Positions 1,967 through 12,654 of a DNA stretch of 64,000 bases are shown one piece after another. Made by a program: the position numbers and the translations under genes. Below the pieces are notes generated by a model. That model did no database searches. It saw nothing but the letters and a program-made list of their open reading frames with translations, and was not told the origin of the DNA. The stretch covers positions 1,524,527 to 1,588,526 of the forward strand of contig FP929140.1 in assembly GCA_000198515.1 (NCBI GenBank), written 5' to 3'. The stretch comes from a gamma proteobacterium HdN1. Lineage in GTDB: Bacteria > Pseudomonadota > Gammaproteobacteria > Pseudomonadales > Ketobacteraceae. Position 1 is the first letter of the stretch. Every line of letters starts with the position of its first letter.

Positions 1967-2219
1967 CATCATGGGCACCCAACAGTTACGCATTGCCAGT
2001 GAATACGAATTCTGCGATCGGTTTCTGCACTGCGAACTAGGCGGCATGCCGCCACTGGGTGAGCCGTACAGCATGCGCGTGTTTATAGAGCGGGGCTTGA
2101 TGAACGACAACTGGATCGCCTTCAACGCAGGCACTTATACTAAAGTGATCAAGATGGATACCGGCGTATTCCGGCGTCTGGTGCAGCCGATGGTGTGCAG
2201 TTTTGGTGAAACGCACTGA
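1884..2219 (+). pseudogene. YbaK/EbsC-type aminoacyl-tRNA deacylase remnant (N-terminus missing)
   Basis: This open frame encodes the C-terminal half of a YbaK/ProX-like editing domain, which removes mischarged amino acids from tRNA. Recognisable blocks are LRIASEYEF, CELGGMPPLGEPY (family form CEVGAMPPFG), the segment around VFIER, and IAFNAGTYTKVIKM followed by FRRLVQP. Intact members are about 150-165 residues. The N-terminal part with the conserved catalytic lysine region is not present upstream: the frame enters from the repeated segment and from non-coding DNA after dauA. A GTG at 1914 and an ATG at 1971 could start translation, but of a domain fragment only. It is convergent with the HIT gene. 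I read it as a decayed gene broken by the same event that created the flanking repeats. Confidence 0.7.
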
Positions 2220-2256
2220 ACCTGAAAACGTAGTTACCAGGGAGCAACTCTCTGCC

Positions 2257-2715
2257 TCAGCAAGACGCCCTGATCCGGCTCGCCAGCTCTGCTAGTACAG
2301 CATCGTCTGCGCGCTTGTAGTCATGCGACGAGATATAGCCTTCATATCGGGTGAAATATTTATCGACGCTGGAGGATATCGGTCTGAATTCAGAACCGCC
2401 TCCCGTTCCGTGCATGGGAAAGAGCTTGCTGTGGAGATGATCGACGCCATAACCCTCGAAAATCAGGCCGGTTCTGCCAACATCGGAGAAGTAGCGATCC
2501 AGAACCGTAGCCACCTTCTTGCTGGCCAGCAGCAAGGCAGCAATGCTCTGATCATCGTGATCGAAAACATAGCTTGAGAGGTGGCGCTTGGGAATGACAA
2601 CACTGAAACCTTCTATATTCGGATAGATAGACAGAAAGGCAAGGTGTGCTTCGTCTTCCCAGATTTTGTGGCAAGGCTGATGACCGGCCACGATGGCGCA
2701 GAAAATACAACTCAT
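2257..2715 (-). CDS. HIT (histidine triad) hydrolase, MccH-like immunity candidate
   Basis: The 152-residue product starts with CIFC (residues 3-6) and follows the HIT fold: EDEAHLAFLSIYP near 20, then GFSVVIPKRH near 36-45, and the signature GYGVDHLHSKLFPMH at 88-102. HIT enzymes hydrolyse nucleotide-phosphoramidate and related bonds using the central histidine, here H95. The triad is H93-x-H95-x-K97, so the third histidine is a lysine. The ATG overlaps the stop of the upstream MccB-like gene (ATGA, 2712-2715), which implies translational coupling and chose this start over an upstream in-frame one. HIT hydrolases in microcin C-like clusters (MccH) give resistance by cutting the peptide-nucleotide phosphoramide bond; that role here is inferred from context. 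A housekeeping HIT function is the alternative. Confidence 0.85.
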   Translation of the reverse strand: MSCIFCAIVAGHQPCHKIWEDEAHLAFLSIYPNIEGFSVVIPKRHLSSYVFDHDDQSIAALLLASKKVATVLDRYFSDVGRTGLIFEGYGVDHLHSKLFPMHGTGGGSEFRPISSSVDKYFTRYEGYISSHDYKRADDAVLAELASRIRASC

Positions 2716-3713
2716 TGCGAAACGCCTCTTGGATACGTCGTGGCTGATCTCGGGAAATTGTCCGTACTCCAGTGTGAAACAAAGGGGCTGTTGAAATTTT
2801 TCGATTCCGGAAAACAGAGTGCATGCAAACACAATGAAGCAGCAAAACCAGCGATTTCAGTATTGCTGGGACCAAAGCTGGGACCGATAAACCAGGGATT
2901 ACGATTCCAGGTATAGTCACCTTCCCACGTCTCGCTGGACTGTCCGCATACATAAGTTACGCTCAAGTTGGCGTGGAAGTAGCCACATGTGATCATGCGA
3001 ATAGCGCCGGTGGAGGCGAGCTGCTTCAGCCTGGCATCTCCAATGCCCAAGGGCTCATCCGCAGTCAGGAGCACGAGATCGTATCCTTGCGCAGCGGCGC
3101 ATATACTGTCGTCAGTTATTTTGTGATCGAGCACATCGATACTGAGATCATGGTATCGACGCTGCAATTCCCTGCGCAGAACCGCCACCTTTTTTTGACC
3201 GATATCTTCGCTTCTCCAGAAGAACTGTCTATTCATGTTGCTTTGCTCAATGGTATCGTCGTCGATCAGCTTGATGTGCTTCACACCTGCGCCCGCAAAG
3301 TTGAAAGCCGACAGCGCGCCTATGCCGCCGCAACCGACAATCAGTACCCTGGCATTGTGCATGTTCTCCATGGCCTGACAAACCGCGCCACAATTCTCGG
3401 CGATTGCGCAGAGATACGATGCTGTGCGACTGGTCTCCGGCGCCAGCAACAGCTTTTTGCACGCATCAATATCCTCGGCGCTGCCAAAAAGTATCGAGCC
3501 GGTGGCAACCAATGCCTGAACAATATCGACAGCATTGTCCAGGTCGACTTTCTTGAGACCTTTCGGCCCGGAAATCATGCGCTCGTTTCGGGCGTTGCCG
3601 AAACCTTCAAGAGATGAAGGACAGAGGACACCCAAGGGCTTGCCCTCGACTAGCACGATTCCGTCATGAATATGTACATCGGTGGTTTGAAGATGGGTGA
3701 ATATAGATTCCAT
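2712..3713 (-). CDS. mccB: MccB-like E1/ThiF adenylyltransferase
   Basis: The 333-residue protein has an N-terminal domain of about 120 residues, the place of the peptide clamp in MccB, followed by a ThiF/E1 nucleotide-binding fold. Visible motifs are VLIVGCGGIG (123-132), LIDDDTIEQSNMNRQ (149-163), DIGQKKV (170-176), the acidic LLTADEP loop (215-221) and FIGPSFGPSNTEIAGFAA (275-292), which matches the MccB segment facing the active site. MccB adenylates the C-terminal Asn of its precursor and makes the peptidyl-N-P-AMP linkage. The two CxxC zinc pairs of many E1-like enzymes are absent: there is only YVCGQ at 254-258 and no cysteine near the C-terminus. GAGGAAAAT stands just before the ATG. 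It lies 71 bp after the Asn-terminated ORF and overlaps the HIT gene. Other E1 enzymes of RiPP pathways, such as the pantocin type, are possible. Confidence 0.75.
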   Translation of the reverse strand: MESIFTHLQTTDVHIHDGIVLVEGKPLGVLCPSSLEGFGNARNERMISGPKGLKKVDLDNAVDIVQALVATGSILFGSAEDIDACKKLLLAPETSRTASYLCAIAENCGAVCQAMENMHNARVLIVGCGGIGALSAFNFAGAGVKHIKLIDDDTIEQSNMNRQFFWRSEDIGQKKVAVLRRELQRRYHDLSIDVLDHKITDDSICAAAQGYDLVLLTADEPLGIGDARLKQLASTGAIRMITCGYFHANLSVTYVCGQSSETWEGDYTWNRNPWFIGPSFGPSNTEIAGFAASLCLHALCFPESKNFNSPFVSHWSTDNFPRSATTYPRGVSQ

Positions 3714-3784
3714 ATTTTCCTCGACACCGCCACCCCTTGTTAGGAGCAGCGGGCATTTTCTGCAATCAAGAGGTTATGCGCGGT

Positions 3785-3958
3785 TTAGTTGCATATGGAG
3801 GGCAGTCTAGGGAGATAACAACCGCGGTAGGACACCACTTTACTCGTTTCCGCCTTAACTACCTGGGGAGCAGCCTGGTCAGGCGTGGCACCCACAGCGA
3901 AGGCATGTGCCGACAACAGGACGGATACTGCGGTGATAACGACTTGCTTACATTCCAT
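3785..3958 (-). CDS. Candidate microcin C-like precursor peptide (57 aa, C-terminal Asn)
   Basis: A short ORF lies between the promoter at 4011-4039 and the MccB-like gene. GGAG followed by AAACAAAA precedes its ATG. The first part, MECKQVVITAVSVLLSAHAFA, reads as a Sec signal: short n-region, hydrophobic core, AFA cleavage site near residue 21. A polar linker follows, then a C-terminal stretch YRGCYLPRLPSICN directly before TAA. Every known MccA-type precursor ends in Asn because MccB modifies that residue; here the last codon is AAC. Two cysteines (47 and 56) in the tail could form a disulfide. The similarity is in architecture, not alignable sequence. Alternatively it is a small secreted protein of other function. 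A signal-like leader on an MccA-type substrate would be unusual. Confidence 0.6.
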   Translation of the reverse strand: MECKQVVITAVSVLLSAHAFAVGATPDQAAPQVVKAETSKVVSYRGCYLPRLPSICN

Positions 3959-4010
3959 TTTTGTTTCTCCATTAAAGTGAAATTATGACCATTCGCGCGA
4001 GGTCCGCTCC

Positions 4011-4039
4011 ATCTTATTGGCTTACATCAATCACTTCAA
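4011..4039 (-). promoter_or_regulatory. Sigma-70 promoter of the microcin-like operon
   Basis: On the minus strand TTGAAG (4039-4034) and TAAGAT (4016-4011) are 17 bases apart, each matching four of six consensus positions. The predicted start of transcription, near 4004, leaves a leader of about 45 bases before the 57-codon ORF. The Fur-like box ends one base upstream of the -35. Confidence 0.5.
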
Positions 4040-4040
4040 T

Positions 4041-4059
4041 AATAATGATAATCATTGTT
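4041..4059. promoter_or_regulatory. Fur-box-like iron operator
   Basis: AATAATGATAATCATTGTT matches the 19-bp Fur consensus GATAATGATAATCATTATC at 16 positions and keeps the central palindrome ATGATAATCAT. It abuts the -35 element of the operon promoter, a place where Fur-Fe(II) would repress. Low iron is therefore the predicted inducing signal. Confidence 0.75.
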
Positions 4060-4076
4060 ATTTGGTTGCGGTGCCA

Positions 4077-4266
4077 AAGGGAATCGCAATGATGCCCACC
4101 GTCACACCGGCCAGCAAATCCCTCTGGAAAAAATTGTGCAGCCGCTTCATTGTACAGCCGCTTCGGCCCGCAACGTTGGCTGTGGCGTAGCGATCTATGC
4201 AAAGAGAACGCCTGTGTTAGTATCCGTAGCACACGGTAAGCTTTCGGGCCGCCAGACATTACTAAC
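4077..4266. repeat. Second copy of direct repeat (dauA scrap + deacylase scrap)
   Basis: Bases 4077-4130 equal 1616-1669 exactly, and 4131-4266 equal 1831-1966 at about 95 percent. The copy has lost the 161 bases that separate the two parts upstream. It ends 15 bp before the next gene. Recombination between 1831-1966 and 4131-4266 would loop out the whole microcin-like operon. Confidence 0.93.
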
Positions 4267-8507: not shown

Positions 8508-8568
8508 GGGAGATCCAAGCGGTTGGCGACACCAACTTCGTGCCTAGGGGCACAGGCGTTGGGTAGCG

Positions 8569-8613
8569 GTAGTCGGGGAAATGGTAGTCGGGGAAATGGT
8601 AGTCGGGGAAATG
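8569..8613. repeat. Tandem repeat, 3 x 15 bp
   Basis: Three exact copies of gtagtcggggaaatg lie between the greB stop and the MATE start. A degenerate fourth copy (gtagatgagtgaatg) follows. They fall in the promoter/leader region of the MATE gene. Confidence 0.9.
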
Positions 8614-8637
8614 GTAGATGAGTGAATGGGTGAGTGT

Positions 8638-9117
8638 TTAGGGCTTTCGGTATTCGATGCTCTCAATTTCCCACTCTTTGGTCGCCTCCGGAGTGCGAAC
8701 GGTAATCTCATCCCCCTCGCTCTTGCCTAGGCAGGCCCGAACAATGGGCGCGTTTACAGACACGTAGTTCTTTTTGCCATAAATCTCGTCAGGCCCAACG
8801 ATTCGGAAAGACAGGCGCTGATCATCTACATCCACCAATCCCACCCAAGCGCCAAAATAAACCTTGCCTTCTTGAACAGAGTTGTACTCGACGACGCGCA
8901 GCTTGCCCAAACGACCGCGTAGAAACCGCACCCGCCGGTCGATTTCCCGCAGGCGTTTTTTGTTGTACTGATAGTCCGCATTCTCAGAACGATCACCCAA
9001 ACTTGCCGCCCATTGCACCAGTTTCGTGACTTTTGGACGCTCCTTGTACCAAAGTTCATCCAATTCCTGCTGCAGCTCCGTATAGCCTTCTGGGGTAATT
9101 ACGTTGGTATCCATCAT
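8638..9117 (-). CDS. greB: Transcript cleavage factor GreB
   Basis: The 158-159-residue protein has the two Gre domains. The N-terminal coiled coil carries the catalytic loop as LGDRSENADYQYNKKRLREIDRR, with the acidic pair D/E at its tip. The C-terminal FKBP-like domain contains VGPDEIYGKKNYVSVNAPIVRACLGKSEGDE. It rescues backtracked RNA polymerase by stimulating transcript cleavage. The basic pattern RYLxxRLxxL (here RFLRGRLGKLRVV) and the length favour GreB over GreA. Two adjacent ATG codons (9117 and 9114) are possible starts. Confidence 0.96.
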   Translation of the reverse strand: MMDTNVITPEGYTELQQELDELWYKERPKVTKLVQWAASLGDRSENADYQYNKKRLREIDRRVRFLRGRLGKLRVVEYNSVQEGKVYFGAWVGLVDVDDQRLSFRIVGPDEIYGKKNYVSVNAPIVRACLGKSEGDEITVRTPEATKEWEIESIEYRKP

Positions 9118-9184
9118 TTGATAGGGTAGCCTCAGAACTTTTGAGTCAGGAAAGATAGGTTGTGCTGCAAGCGATCAACAGAAC

Positions 9185-9270
9185 GCCGAAAGCTTTTTTC
9201 TGCAAGCCGAAAGCTTTTCTTTGCAAGCAGAAAGTTTTTTCTTCGCAAGCCGAAAGTTTTTTCTTCGCAA
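9185..9270. repeat. Tandem repeat, 4 x 21-22 bp
   Basis: Four imperfect units of the form gccgaaagcttttttctgcaa (9185, 9206, 9227, 9249) lie in the divergent intergenic region between greB and the GGDEF-EAL gene. T-rich halves recur every two helical turns, which could bend DNA or bind a regulator. Confidence 0.88.
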
Positions 9271-9390
9271 GAATGTTATCAGGATGTAAATTGTAGAAAA
9301 AACAGTCGCCAGATGGGTTTATAATAGCCGATTTGGTGGCCGCTTTGCGTAGTGTATGCGTGCGCAGTGTATACAAAGGATGTAGTAATC

Positions 9391-11262
9391 ATGAAGGACG
9401 TAGACAGCAAACCCTCGACCGCTCGTCTTTTGGTTCAGGCGGGCCAAGCTGTGCCTGAAAAAGCGGCCCGTCCAAGCCAAGATCAGTTGCTCGCAGACGC
9501 CGTATTCGATGCCATTAGCGAAGGCGTGTTCATCGCCGATCGTGAAGGCTTCATCGAAAAGGCCAACCCTGCCTTCCTCACGCTTACCCAATACAAATCC
9601 GAGCAAATCATCGGCCAGCACTGCAGCCGCCTCTGGGAAGAGCACCTCAGTAGCGGAATCTTCAAAAACATGCGTAAAGGCGTCGATGCTGAATCAAGCT
9701 GGCGCATGGACACCACCGTTGTCTGCAATCATGGCAGAGTTCGCCCCGCAACGCTGAGCGTTACGGCGATTCGGGATCTGGCCGGCCAAGTCACACACTA
9801 TATTGGCATCCTGCTCGACACCGCCGAACGCCGCCAAAGTGAACAGCGGATCTACCGCTTGGCCTACTACGACTCGCTGACCGAAATTCCCAACCGAGTT
9901 TCTTTTTTTGAACGCTTGGATCAGGCGCTTGCGAGCGCGGGAAGCACCGGAACGTCTCTCGCGGTGCTGTTTTTAGACCTCGACCGCTTCAAACCCATCA
10001 ACGATTCTTTGGGGCACGGTGCGGGAGATCAGCTGCTAAAAGCGGTCGCCCGTCGCTTGCTCTACTGCATCCGCGAAAACGATCTGGTTGCGCGGGTCGG
10101 TGGTGATGAGTTTGCAATTCTCTTGACGAGGCTCAACACCCCAGAGGAAGCCGAAAGTACCGCCATTATCACCGCATCCCGCATCCTTGCGCAGTTTGCA
10201 ACCGCCTTTATGATCGAAGGGCGCGATGTGTTCTCGTCCACCAGCATTGGAATTGCGCTGTTTCCCAGAGACGGCCAACTGCCGGACGAGCTGGTGCGTA
10301 ACGCCGACATGGCCATGTACGCAGCAAAAAAAGCCGGCAAGAACGCATGGCACTTCTACGATCACAGCATGAACGAGAAGGCCATGGAGCGCTTGGTGAT
10401 GGAAAACGCCATGCGCAAGGCGCTGAATAACAGCGAGTTTGAGTTGTATTTCCAACCCCAATGCGAAGCGGATAGCGGTGCGCTGGCGGGTTTGGAAGTA
10501 TTGCTGCGCTGGCAGCACCCCCAATTTGGTATACAGACGCCGGCAGAATTTCTCGCGCTTGCAGAAGAAACCGACCTGATCAACCCGATCGGTGAATGGG
10601 TGTTTGAAAAAGCGCTTGGCACGCTAGAAGACTGGCTATCACAAGGTTTTGATCCGGGATATCTTGCGATTAACATTTCCAGCACGCAGTTCAAGCGCAC
10701 GAATTTTGCTGACTATCTCCAGATTTTGTTGCGTCGTCACGAGATGGATCCCAGCTACATTCAACTGGAAATTACCGAGCACGCCATCATGGAAGACGTT
10801 GCGCGCTCACAAAAGATTCTGGATACCCTCAGCGACGCGGGGATTCGCATTGCGATTGATGATTTTGGCGTTGGCTACTCCTCTCTAAATCACCTGCGCC
10901 GCTTTCCGGTGCATACCCTGAAAATTGATCGAGATTTTGTTCGCGACCTCGAACTGGAAGGCGGCACACAAGCCCTCACCAATGCAGTCATCGCCATTGG
11001 CAAGAGCTTGAATCTTAGCGTTATCGCAGAAGGTGTCGAGACAGCAGGGCAGTTAGAGTACTTGCGAACCCACGGCTGTCGACGGGTGCAGGGGCATTAT
11101 TTGAGCGCGCCCATGAACGCAGCCGCCGTTATGGAAAAATATTTCTGCAACGTGTTAGACGCTAGGGAAGTTCAAGAAAAAAGCGCCGAGCCGCAAGCTA
11201 CGGCGAATGCAACACAAGCGCCAGTGGTATCGGAGTTCCAGCCCGAGCCTGAGCAAGCGTAG
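9391..11262 (+). CDS. PAS-GGDEF-EAL cyclic-di-GMP signalling protein
   Basis: The 623-residue protein has a PAS sensor at about residues 30-145 (AISEGVFIADREGFIEKANPAFLTLT), a GGDEF domain at about 155-320 with intact RVGGDEF, and an EAL domain at about 335-590. The EAL motif reads EVLLRW, a variant seen in active phosphodiesterases; the metal motif DDFGVGYSSL and AEGVETAGQL are intact. There are no membrane segments, so it acts in the cytoplasm. It could make and degrade c-di-GMP, with PAS input setting the balance. AAGGA before the ATG at 9391 supports that start over 9352. The last 30 residues are Ala/Gln-rich. The four repeats at 9185-9270 lie in its upstream region. Confidence 0.94.
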   Translation: MKDVDSKPSTARLLVQAGQAVPEKAARPSQDQLLADAVFDAISEGVFIADREGFIEKANPAFLTLTQYKSEQIIGQHCSRLWEEHLSSGIFKNMRKGVDAESSWRMDTTVVCNHGRVRPATLSVTAIRDLAGQVTHYIGILLDTAERRQSEQRIYRLAYYDSLTEIPNRVSFFERLDQALASAGSTGTSLAVLFLDLDRFKPINDSLGHGAGDQLLKAVARRLLYCIRENDLVARVGGDEFAILLTRLNTPEEAESTAIITASRILAQFATAFMIEGRDVFSSTSIGIALFPRDGQLPDELVRNADMAMYAAKKAGKNAWHFYDHSMNEKAMERLVMENAMRKALNNSEFELYFQPQCEADSGALAGLEVLLRWQHPQFGIQTPAEFLALAEETDLINPIGEWVFEKALGTLEDWLSQGFDPGYLAINISSTQFKRTNFADYLQILLRRHEMDPSYIQLEITEHAIMEDVARSQKILDTLSDAGIRIAIDDFGVGYSSLNHLRRFPVHTLKIDRDFVRDLELEGGTQALTNAVIAIGKSLNLSVIAEGVETAGQLEYLRTHGCRRVQGHYLSAPMNAAAVMEKYFCNVLDAREVQEKSAEPQATANATQAPVVSEFQPEPEQA

Positions 11263-11273
11263 CGCAAGACTTT

Positions 11274-11933
11274 TTATTTCTGCGTTGCATCTGCGAGTTT
11301 ACGCGCCATTGCGGCCCCTCGTGACGTAGTGGCCGTAATGACTTGGCTCCCCGTCAGGATGATCCGCAGTTCGAGCTTCAGTTTTTCGGCAAGCGGCGCA
11401 CGTTCCTCTTTGGGAAGGCTTAGCGCTTCAATGCCGCCATCGAACACCAGATTGACCATCATTTCAGCAACTACCGTTATATGATCTAACGGCTGATGGC
11501 GCGTGGGCGGGTCTTTGCTTAAATCGTCGGCCAGTTCATCCACAAAACGTTGTTTCTCTTTCTTGATCGCCGCGCGAAAAGAACGCGGGCCACCAGCACG
11601 ATCGCCCATTAAAAGTTGGAAAAGCAGCGGGTTCTTGTCGATAAAATCCATGAAGGTTTCAATTGACGTATTCACAATGCTGCCTTCCACGCGCACCCGA
11701 TGACGCGCCTTTCGCATGAGCTGCCGCAGGCTCAATCCGACTTCATCCACAATCGCAAGGCCCAGCGCTTCCATGTCGATAAAGTAGCGATAAAAGGTTG
11801 CGGGGGCCACGCCCGCTTCACGAGTCACTTCACGCAGGCTCAGCGCCGGAAAGCCTTTTTCGGAACTTAAGTGCAAGGCTGCTTGTACGATCGCTGTGCG
11901 GGTTTTCTCTCGCTGCTCGATTCTGCTGGCCAT
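11274..11933 (-). CDS. fabR: FabR-type TetR repressor of unsaturated fatty acid synthesis
   Basis: The 219-residue protein begins MASRIEQREKTRTAIVQAAL, equivalent to the E. coli FabR start. The helix-turn-helix is LSLREVTREAGVAPATFYRYF, followed by DMEALGLAIVDEVGLSLRQLMRKAR, a stretch shared with FabR. FabR senses acyl-thioester pools and represses fabA/fabB. A longer in-frame extension to 12044 exists but lacks family similarity and overlaps the upstream gene. It starts 19 bp after the second TetR gene ends, so the two probably share a transcript. Confidence 0.85.
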   Translation of the reverse strand: MASRIEQREKTRTAIVQAALHLSSEKGFPALSLREVTREAGVAPATFYRYFIDMEALGLAIVDEVGLSLRQLMRKARHRVRVEGSIVNTSIETFMDFIDKNPLLFQLLMGDRAGGPRSFRAAIKKEKQRFVDELADDLSKDPPTRHQPLDHITVVAEMMVNLVFDGGIEALSLPKEERAPLAEKLKLELRIILTGSQVITATTSRGAAMARKLADATQK

Positions 11934-11952
11934 GCAATAAGAGGCTCGTGAT

Positions 11953-12654
11953 TCAATCGGTGGGTGAGTCGCTGGAAAAAGCCGCCGTCGCTTGGTGCGT
12001 AGAAATGAGTCGCGGTAAATCATCTTGCCAATAGAACAGCACATAATCTGTGAGCGCTTCGGCGGGCGCTTCTACATCTTCATAGTGGCCGGCAATGAAC
12101 TGGCTCGCATAACATTCAAACAGGGCAAAAACCCCATCCATAAACAAACGCAGCCGCACCTGTTCGGTGGGTGTTTTACCAGCAATCCCGATGTTCATAA
12201 ACACCTGTGCCCAGCCTACCTTGTTATCGTTGTAGAAGCGCGATAGGTGGGCGCCCAGCGGCGAGTTGGGTTGATCTCTCTCAGCCCAGACCATGCGACA
12301 CAGCGCTTGTTGCCCTCGGATGATATCAAAACCGGCGATAAAAAGGCGGTGAATAACGTCGCGAATCTCCTCTGGGTGCAGGGTCAGCAGCACCGTTTCT
12401 AACGAGCGTTGTAAGGGATGGATAAAGCGCTCTGCGAGATCGTTCGCCATCGCTTCAAATAGCTGCTCCATCGTCTCAAAGTGTACATAAAAGCTAGGCT
12501 GGGCAATGCCCGCTCGCTTGGTGACTTTGTTCATGCTTATGCCCGCATAGCCTTCTTCGATCAAAGTTTCAATCGCGGCATTTACGATCCGTGCACGGGT
12601 ACGAGCTTTTGTTGCGTTGCGCGTATGCGACGTGCTGGTTGCAGCATGGGACAT
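11953..12654 (-). CDS. TetR-family transcriptional regulator
   Basis: The 233-residue protein has a TetR N-terminal domain (RARIVNAAIETLIEEGYAG then MNKVTKRAGIAQPSFYVHFETMEQLFEA) and a long ligand-binding part with RMVWAERDQPNSPLGAHLSRFY. The ligand is unknown. It is divergent from the esterase at 12800. A 15-bp-arm inverted repeat sits between the two starts, so autoregulation and control of the esterase are likely. The FabR gene follows 19 bp downstream, which suggests a lipid-related signal. Confidence 0.9.
   Translation of the reverse strand: MSHAATSTSHTRNATKARTRARIVNAAIETLIEEGYAGISMNKVTKRAGIAQPSFYVHFETMEQLFEAMANDLAERFIHPLQRSLETVLLTLHPEEIRDVIHRLFIAGFDIIRGQQALCRMVWAERDQPNSPLGAHLSRFYNDNKVGWAQVFMNIGIAGKTPTEQVRLRLFMDGVFALFECYASQFIAGHYEDVEAPAEALTDYVLFYWQDDLPRLISTHQATAAFSSDSPTD

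Follow-up and report, generated by a model that had tools for sequence, protein, structure and literature searches.

Microcin C and related systems

The systems closest to the locus described here are summarized from those parts of the cited reports that were searched. In E. coli, microcin C is encoded by mccABCDEF; the precursor, MccA, has only 7 amino acids, with neither a signal peptide nor a cysteine, and the operon includes the MFS exporter MccC (plasmid record; PMC12250964). An exporter is also part of the published minimal mcc operons, which contain mccA and mccB (PMC9239234). Published routes of immunity act on processed microcin C, which is destroyed by HIT hydrolases (PMC7157772) or by S51 peptidases (PMC9239234), or dealt with by MccE (PMC7157772, PMC9239234). 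In the mcc cluster of Hyalangium minutum, a HIT protein, MccH, is encoded beside mccB, the precursors are long, and the exporter encoded there is of the ABC type and has a C39-like peptidase; the searched text of that report mentions no Sec signal (PMC7157772). The same report notes mcc-like clusters of Pseudomonas with a HIT protein of the MccH clade, and the main text searched leaves their precursors undescribed (PMC7157772).

We analysed a stretch of 64,000 nucleotides (the window) carrying a small cluster of this general type. It shares with E. coli microcin C a precursor ending in Asn and an MccB-type enzyme, recognized by both profile and fold, and with the Hyalangium cluster a long precursor, MccB and a HIT gene beside mccB. 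Unlike these, it encodes neither an MFS nor an ABC-type exporter. Another likeness, in its cysteines and its predicted signal peptide, is to the bufferins and other RiPPs modified by multinuclear iron oxidases (MNIO), whose Cys-containing precursors carry Sec signal peptides; bufferins, however, are modified by the iron oxidase and a partner, whereas the enzyme here is a ThiF-fold nucleotidyltransferase and the peptide ends in Asn (PMC12452194). No MNIO enzyme lies next to the precursor in the probably inserted islet of the window that holds the cluster.

The precursor gene and its operon

The precursor gene, which is mccA-like, occupies positions 3785-3958 on the minus strand. It starts with ATG, is preceded at a distance of 8 nt by a Shine-Dalgarno sequence, GGAG (3967-3970, minus strand), and encodes a 57-aa peptide (MECKQVVITAVSVLLSAHAFAVGATPDQAAPQVVKAETSKVVSYRGCYLPRLPSICN) that ends in ...RGCYLPRLPSICN. 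Residues 1-21 (3896-3958, minus strand) form a predicted signal peptide with a cut after AFA. This site was placed by eye; the site scored highest by our home-made rule is AHA, two residues before it. The predicted mature peptide (3788-3895, minus strand) has 36 aa, a net charge of +2 and cysteines at its positions 26 and 35. These are Cys47 and Cys56 of the precursor, and they bound a C-terminal loop, Cys47-x8-Cys56-Asn57 (3788-3820, minus strand), in which C47, C56 and N57 are invariant in an alignment of 11 rows. The frame, the AFA site, the two tail cysteines and the terminal Asn are all present as an earlier note, made from the DNA alone, had described them.

The gene stands at the head of a compact operon, in which it is followed by the MccB-type adenylyltransferase and then by the HIT hydrolase. 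The gap between the precursor and the ThiF-fold gene is 71 nt. The ATG of the HIT gene overlaps the stop codon of mccB (ATGA), and the frame of the HIT gene stays open upstream of this ATG as far as a GTG at 2832.

The 57-aa ORF is genuine and conserved, and we take it for the precursor of a variant of microcin C whose chemistry and export are predicted. We put at roughly 0.8 the probability that it encodes the precursor of a peptidyl-nucleotide of the microcin C type, with a Sec signal peptide in place of the exporter, a reading in which chemistry, export and killing are deduced from the sequence. Small genes of this kind are easily overlooked, and gene callers can miss such precursors.

A family of precursors in related loci

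Sixteen related MccB loci were compared: the window, two loci from a scan of genome contigs, eight from the genus of P. chlororaphis, four from its family, and one from Zooshikella. In 15 of them a small ORF lies 22-236 nt from mccB (upstream in 14, downstream in 1) and has the same build, namely a signal-peptide-like start, two cysteines and a C-terminal C-(x)-Asn. The 15 precursors end in Cys-Asn (10) or Cys-x-Asn (5), and each has two cysteines in its predicted mature part; in the window and ten Pseudomonas loci there are exactly two in that part, spaced by 8-16 residues. This build is kept even though the other precursors are only 15-31% identical to the peptide of the window. Conservation of the frame and of its final Asn had been set by the earlier note as the test on which its claim should stand or fall, and the claim came through it in 15 of 16 loci. 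The two tail cysteines, which the same note had held to be unusual, are indeed there but are not peculiar to this locus, being a fixed feature of the same 15 loci. Zooshikella encodes MccB and HIT, but no precursor of this type was found in the stretch searched.

The C..C(x)N motif was written down after the first 11 precursors had been seen, so that the four loci found later are a fair test of it. All four contain an ORF of the same type, which precedes mccB in three of them; in the fourth it lies 193 nt downstream of an mccB whose frame an in-frame stop interrupts. Signal peptides were judged by a loose home-made rule together with an AxA pattern, and cut sites by eye; of the four later loci, three were scored by the rule and one was judged by eye. 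All 14 precursors that were scored passed the rule, although in several of them, that of the window included, it favoured other cut sites nearby. Inspected by eye, all 15 precursors have an [AVS]-x-A site behind the hydrophobic stretch. As a background we took the 1332 other ORFs of 40-110 aa in the window and ten related loci, among which 137 pass the rule, 28 end in Asn, 4 contain C..C(x)N and 0 combine the rule with the motif, as against 11/11 candidate precursors with both. The end motif occurs in 18 of 2856 ORFs with lengths of 20-110 aa; of these 18, 13 are precursor rows (11 different precursors, since two loci are present twice) and 5 lie elsewhere. The precursor build is more common than chance expects.

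How the peptide changes was followed in a single pair, the precursors of the L027 and L066 loci. There the leader and the core change slowly and the linker between them fast: dN and dS are 0.049 and 0.868 for the leader and 0.75 and 1.21 for the middle, while the last 21 residues have a dN of 0.154 with dS saturated.

Predicted signal peptide and export

No exporter gene was found in the islet of the window, and none is common to the 11 loci that were compared for this purpose, a set to which the four later-found loci do not belong. Of the ORFs with 110 aa or more in these 11 loci, mccB (11) and HIT (10) are the common ones. Apart from these, the groups present in at least three loci consist of antisense frames and of one ABC-ATPase type, which occurs in 4/11 loci; in L099 it lies 222 nt upstream of the precursor, in the other three at a distance of several kb. 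Because it lacks the dedicated exporter of the published minimal mcc operon, the cluster of the window is better called a variant than a plain member of that type. The suggestion of the earlier note that the modified peptide might leave by a general route, with no MFS pump, fits these data, given that the signal-like start, the two cysteines and the Asn recur in 15/16 loci and that no exporter is shared by the 11.

The signal peptide of the precursor would then be an economical substitute for the pump, export by this route being predicted from the leader. Sec signal peptides have been called rare among bacterial RiPPs in the part of one report that was searched (PMC12452194), and we found no description of a signal peptide on an MccA in the main-text literature searched.

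The alternative that survives best gives the N-terminus a different meaning. It could be a hydrophobic leader that is recognized by MccB and removed in the cytoplasm by a TldD/E-type protease, the product being exported by a housekeeping pump encoded elsewhere. There are longer MccA precursors, of 17-56 aa, and one of them is trimmed within the producer, according to the part of the report searched (PMC6495379); our signal-peptide rule, moreover, is loose. Nevertheless, the cut-site pattern seen by eye in every precursor and the passing of the rule by every one that was scored speak for a signal peptide, the leader of the L027/L066 pair is conserved (dN 0.049) as well as the core, and a pair of cysteines in every member has no reason under cytoplasmic trimming. 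We regard this alternative as unlikely, and export through Sec as the preferred reading.

The islet and its probable regulation

The operon lies in a stretch between duplicated flanks (1967-4076), marked off by direct repeats, and this islet likely arose by insertion. A 137-nt repeat has its left copy at 1830-1966 and its right copy, 95% identical, at 4130-4266; in addition, 4077-4130 is a 54-nt copy (100%) of 1616-1669, a piece of the upstream gene. In the right flank copy the 54-nt and 137-nt pieces are joined directly, without the 160 nt that intervene on the left. Besides the genes for precursor, ThiF-fold enzyme and HIT protein, the islet holds only part of an aminoacyl-tRNA editing domain (profile positions 50-122 of 123; 1971-2219, plus strand). 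Its base composition is not distinct. No empty site was available for comparison, the flanking DUF6670 gene being present only in the window's own genome (1/15 of the family). Elsewhere in the window, intergenic short tandem repeats occur at 8568-8617 (15 nt) and 9185-9271 (about 21 nt), and scanning the window against Rfam and for tRNA genes gave no match.

A palindrome resembling a Fur box, with 16 of 19 positions matching the consensus, lies at 4041-4059. Nowhere else in the 64 kb is there a match with 3 mismatches or fewer, the number expected being 0.01. Weak promoter-like hexamers (4048-4077, minus strand) overlap it; there are 3 such sites in the region against 2.0 in shuffled sequences. 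The operon of the window is probably repressed by Fur under iron-rich conditions, as the palindrome and its placing suggest. The low-iron setting that the earlier note proposed for its checks is favoured by the strong site of the window but does not extend to the family, in which such sites are not conserved. Iron control as a family trait is rejected: the Fur-like sites of L027 and L089 are weak, with 6 mismatches (5/300 shuffles were equally good), and an apparent site with 5 mismatches in L093 was discarded when it proved to be another palindrome, GAACG-N5-CGTTC. This second palindrome is found exactly in 4/15 loci (L093, L096, L116, L117), 26-39 nt ahead of the start codon, and is a possible operator of another regulator.

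The history of the islet bears on whether the operon works at all in this organism. It might be genuine by descent and yet have been inactive in this genome ever since its insertion between the duplicated flanks. The duplication of the flanks with internal loss in one copy, the truncated tRNA-editing domain within the islet and the restriction of the cluster to one genome, the organism's own, among the 15 of its family can all be taken in that sense. Against this, all three frames are intact, and the operon has its Shine-Dalgarno sequence, its ATGA overlap and its Fur-like site; we hold inactivity to be distinctly unlikely.

The MccB-type enzyme

The second gene of the operon (2712-3713, minus strand) encodes a protein of 333 aa with a ThiF domain (Pfam ThiF, 3.6e-31), which is 22% identical to E. 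coli MccB. A profile made from four relatives, searched against solved structures, placed E. coli MccB first (1.1e-29), ahead of E1 enzymes (1.5e-23), PaaA (1.6e-20) and ThiF (1.3e-19). The structure model has a mean pLDDT of 74.3, with weak stretches at residues 264-280 and 310-333. When it was submitted to Foldseek, the best 24 rows were all MccB (2.8e-15 downward, TM about 0.6), and the next family, PaaA, came at 1.2e-11. VIA-align also put MccB first, with a Z of 19.0 over 255 residues, which ties with the 18.2 reached by E1 enzymes over 171 residues; the structural alignment to MccB takes in the N-terminal part (model residues 26-309). The protein is accordingly classed as an MccB-type adenylyltransferase with the N-terminal peptide-binding part, the tie with E1 enzymes in the VIA-align Z notwithstanding. 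In the tree, the MccB group makes up one side of a 100/99 branch (12 rows tested), and the point at which this group joins the known MccB is left without resolution. By reading, the protein lacks the CxxC pairs that are present in E. coli MccB, which presumably have a zinc role there.

HIT and other immunity-type genes

The third gene (2257-2715, minus strand) encodes a MccH-like HIT hydrolase of 152 aa (Pfam HIT, 1.6e-07) with an HxHxK motif; it is 63% identical to its homologue in Zooshikella. In 11/11 HIT sequences the motif is accompanied by a Glu six residues before its first His. As judged by reading, this Glu and the Lys of the motif would correspond to E93 and K103 of the Hyalangium MccH.

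A gene of a microcin C immunity type stands beside all 15 precursors. It encodes HIT in 13 loci, in one of which (L118) it is divergent from the precursor-mccB pair. In G805 (L089), an S51 peptidase (PF03575, 3.2e-42; MccG family, or PepE) comes directly after mccB; the S51 family also takes in the housekeeping enzyme PepE. The gene is at the immunity position, as in MccG/S51 immunity, but the published MccG cluster, that of Nocardia vaccinii, is unlike G805 in having a 21-aa precursor and cytidylate chemistry (PMC9239234, in the part searched). In G1680 (L120 8040-12038), a Sec-type precursor is followed by homologues of mccD and mccE, a further likeness to E. coli microcin C, beside the mccB frame interrupted by a stop. 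The methyltransferase is 50% identical to E. coli MccD, the decarboxylase 38% to MccE and the acetyltransferase 44% to the C-terminal domain of MccE; no HIT gene was found in 17 kb of this locus.

The HIT proteins of the clusters do not form one clade in a tree of 35 rows (27 hand-picked from the 80 scan loci, plus eight). The best tree implies 4 changes, at least 2 of them forced by supported branches, which suggests that HIT genes were recruited repeatedly. That immunity parts have been swapped around a constant precursor-MccB pair argues more strongly than anything else for a product that would be a nucleotide conjugate of the microcin C type.

This argument also weighs on the possibility that the MccB-like enzyme makes another bond, such as a thiolactone, an amide or a ring, using the two cysteines, with no nucleotide kept in the product. 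One report has ThiF-like enzymes forming thiolactone and indolylamide bonds (PMC12150305, in the part searched), and two cysteines are fixed near the C-terminus of the precursors. But all 15 precursors end in Asn, as the chemistry of MccB needs, and the neighbouring genes encode enzymes whose substrates are isoaspartyl-nucleotides (HIT, S51) or which decorate these (MccD/MccE), so that such a bond is quite improbable. It is highly improbable that the small ORF is a secreted peptide merely adjoining mccB-HIT while the true MccA is shorter or elsewhere: 7-codon MccA genes are easily overlooked and ORFs shorter than 20 aa were outside our ORF listing, but the same build occurs at the same place in 15 loci in spite of the low identity, four of them found after the motif had been written.

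Proposed pathway

From gene layout, sequence conservation and gene-family identity, which were observed directly, we infer each of the chemical, export and killing steps of a microcin C-type peptidyl-nucleotide as follows. In the cytoplasm, the MccB-like enzyme would activate the C-terminal Asn with ATP and attach a nucleotide. This step is placed before export because MccB needs ATP and, by reading, has no signal peptide. The Sec translocon would then carry the modified peptide over the inner membrane, where signal peptidase I would cut it after AFA to leave about 36 aa. In the periplasm, the two cysteines would probably form a disulfide loop adjoining the end that bears the nucleotide. The peptide would leave the cell, enter competitors and be degraded to a toxic isoaspartyl-nucleotide blocking aspartyl-tRNA synthetase. 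The HIT hydrolase would protect the producer by splitting any such product released in its own cytoplasm.

Extended to the whole family, the proposal is one of peptidyl-nucleotide antibiotics in which a nucleotide-tagged chain passes through Sec, is cut by signal peptidase I and carries a disulfide by its nucleotide, with HIT, S51 or MccD-MccE immunity swapped around a fixed precursor-MccB pair; we consider the odds to lean somewhat in its favour. If true, the replacement of a pump by a signal peptide would amount to a novel design for a Trojan-horse antibiotic, one in which a disulfide would adjoin the warhead. Two questions would also become testable: whether Sec transports a nucleotide-tagged chain, and how export is delayed until MccB has acted. 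Further precursors could be sought by a simple rule, combining a signal peptide, a C-x8-16-C-(x)-N end and a ThiF-fold neighbour.

Occurrence of the cluster

The HIT family is widespread, with 404 relatives in genome contigs. The best 80 of these were examined further, and in 3 the retrieved flank includes a ThiF homologue of this kind: P. chlororaphis PCL1601 (L027), P. fluorescens PS723 (L066) and Zooshikella harenae (L051). Profile searches, whose taxon samples overlap from one search to another, gave 10/398 genomes in the genus of P. chlororaphis (two being the starting loci and eight more) and 6/398 in its family (four new). The cluster was found in 2/390 genomes of the order sample. The class sample (1/369) and, with a 12-row profile, the phylum sample (1/398) returned only the window's own genome. 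Searches of plasmids and phages gave no MccB record covering 80% of the query, and no relative of the HIT protein was found in viral contigs.

Some loci near the edge of this set differ in their arrangement. On the Zooshikella harenae contig L003, HIT, MccB-like and asparagine-synthase-like genes lie in a row (8970-12356) without a Cys-Asn precursor, and a 57-aa ORF ending in VIN occurs at 12367-12540 on the other strand. L033 has a weak partial ThiF match near its HIT gene. The same HIT family is also present, without such a ThiF neighbour, on contigs of Patescibacteria and of archaeal MAGs (L017, L018, L024, L048 and others).
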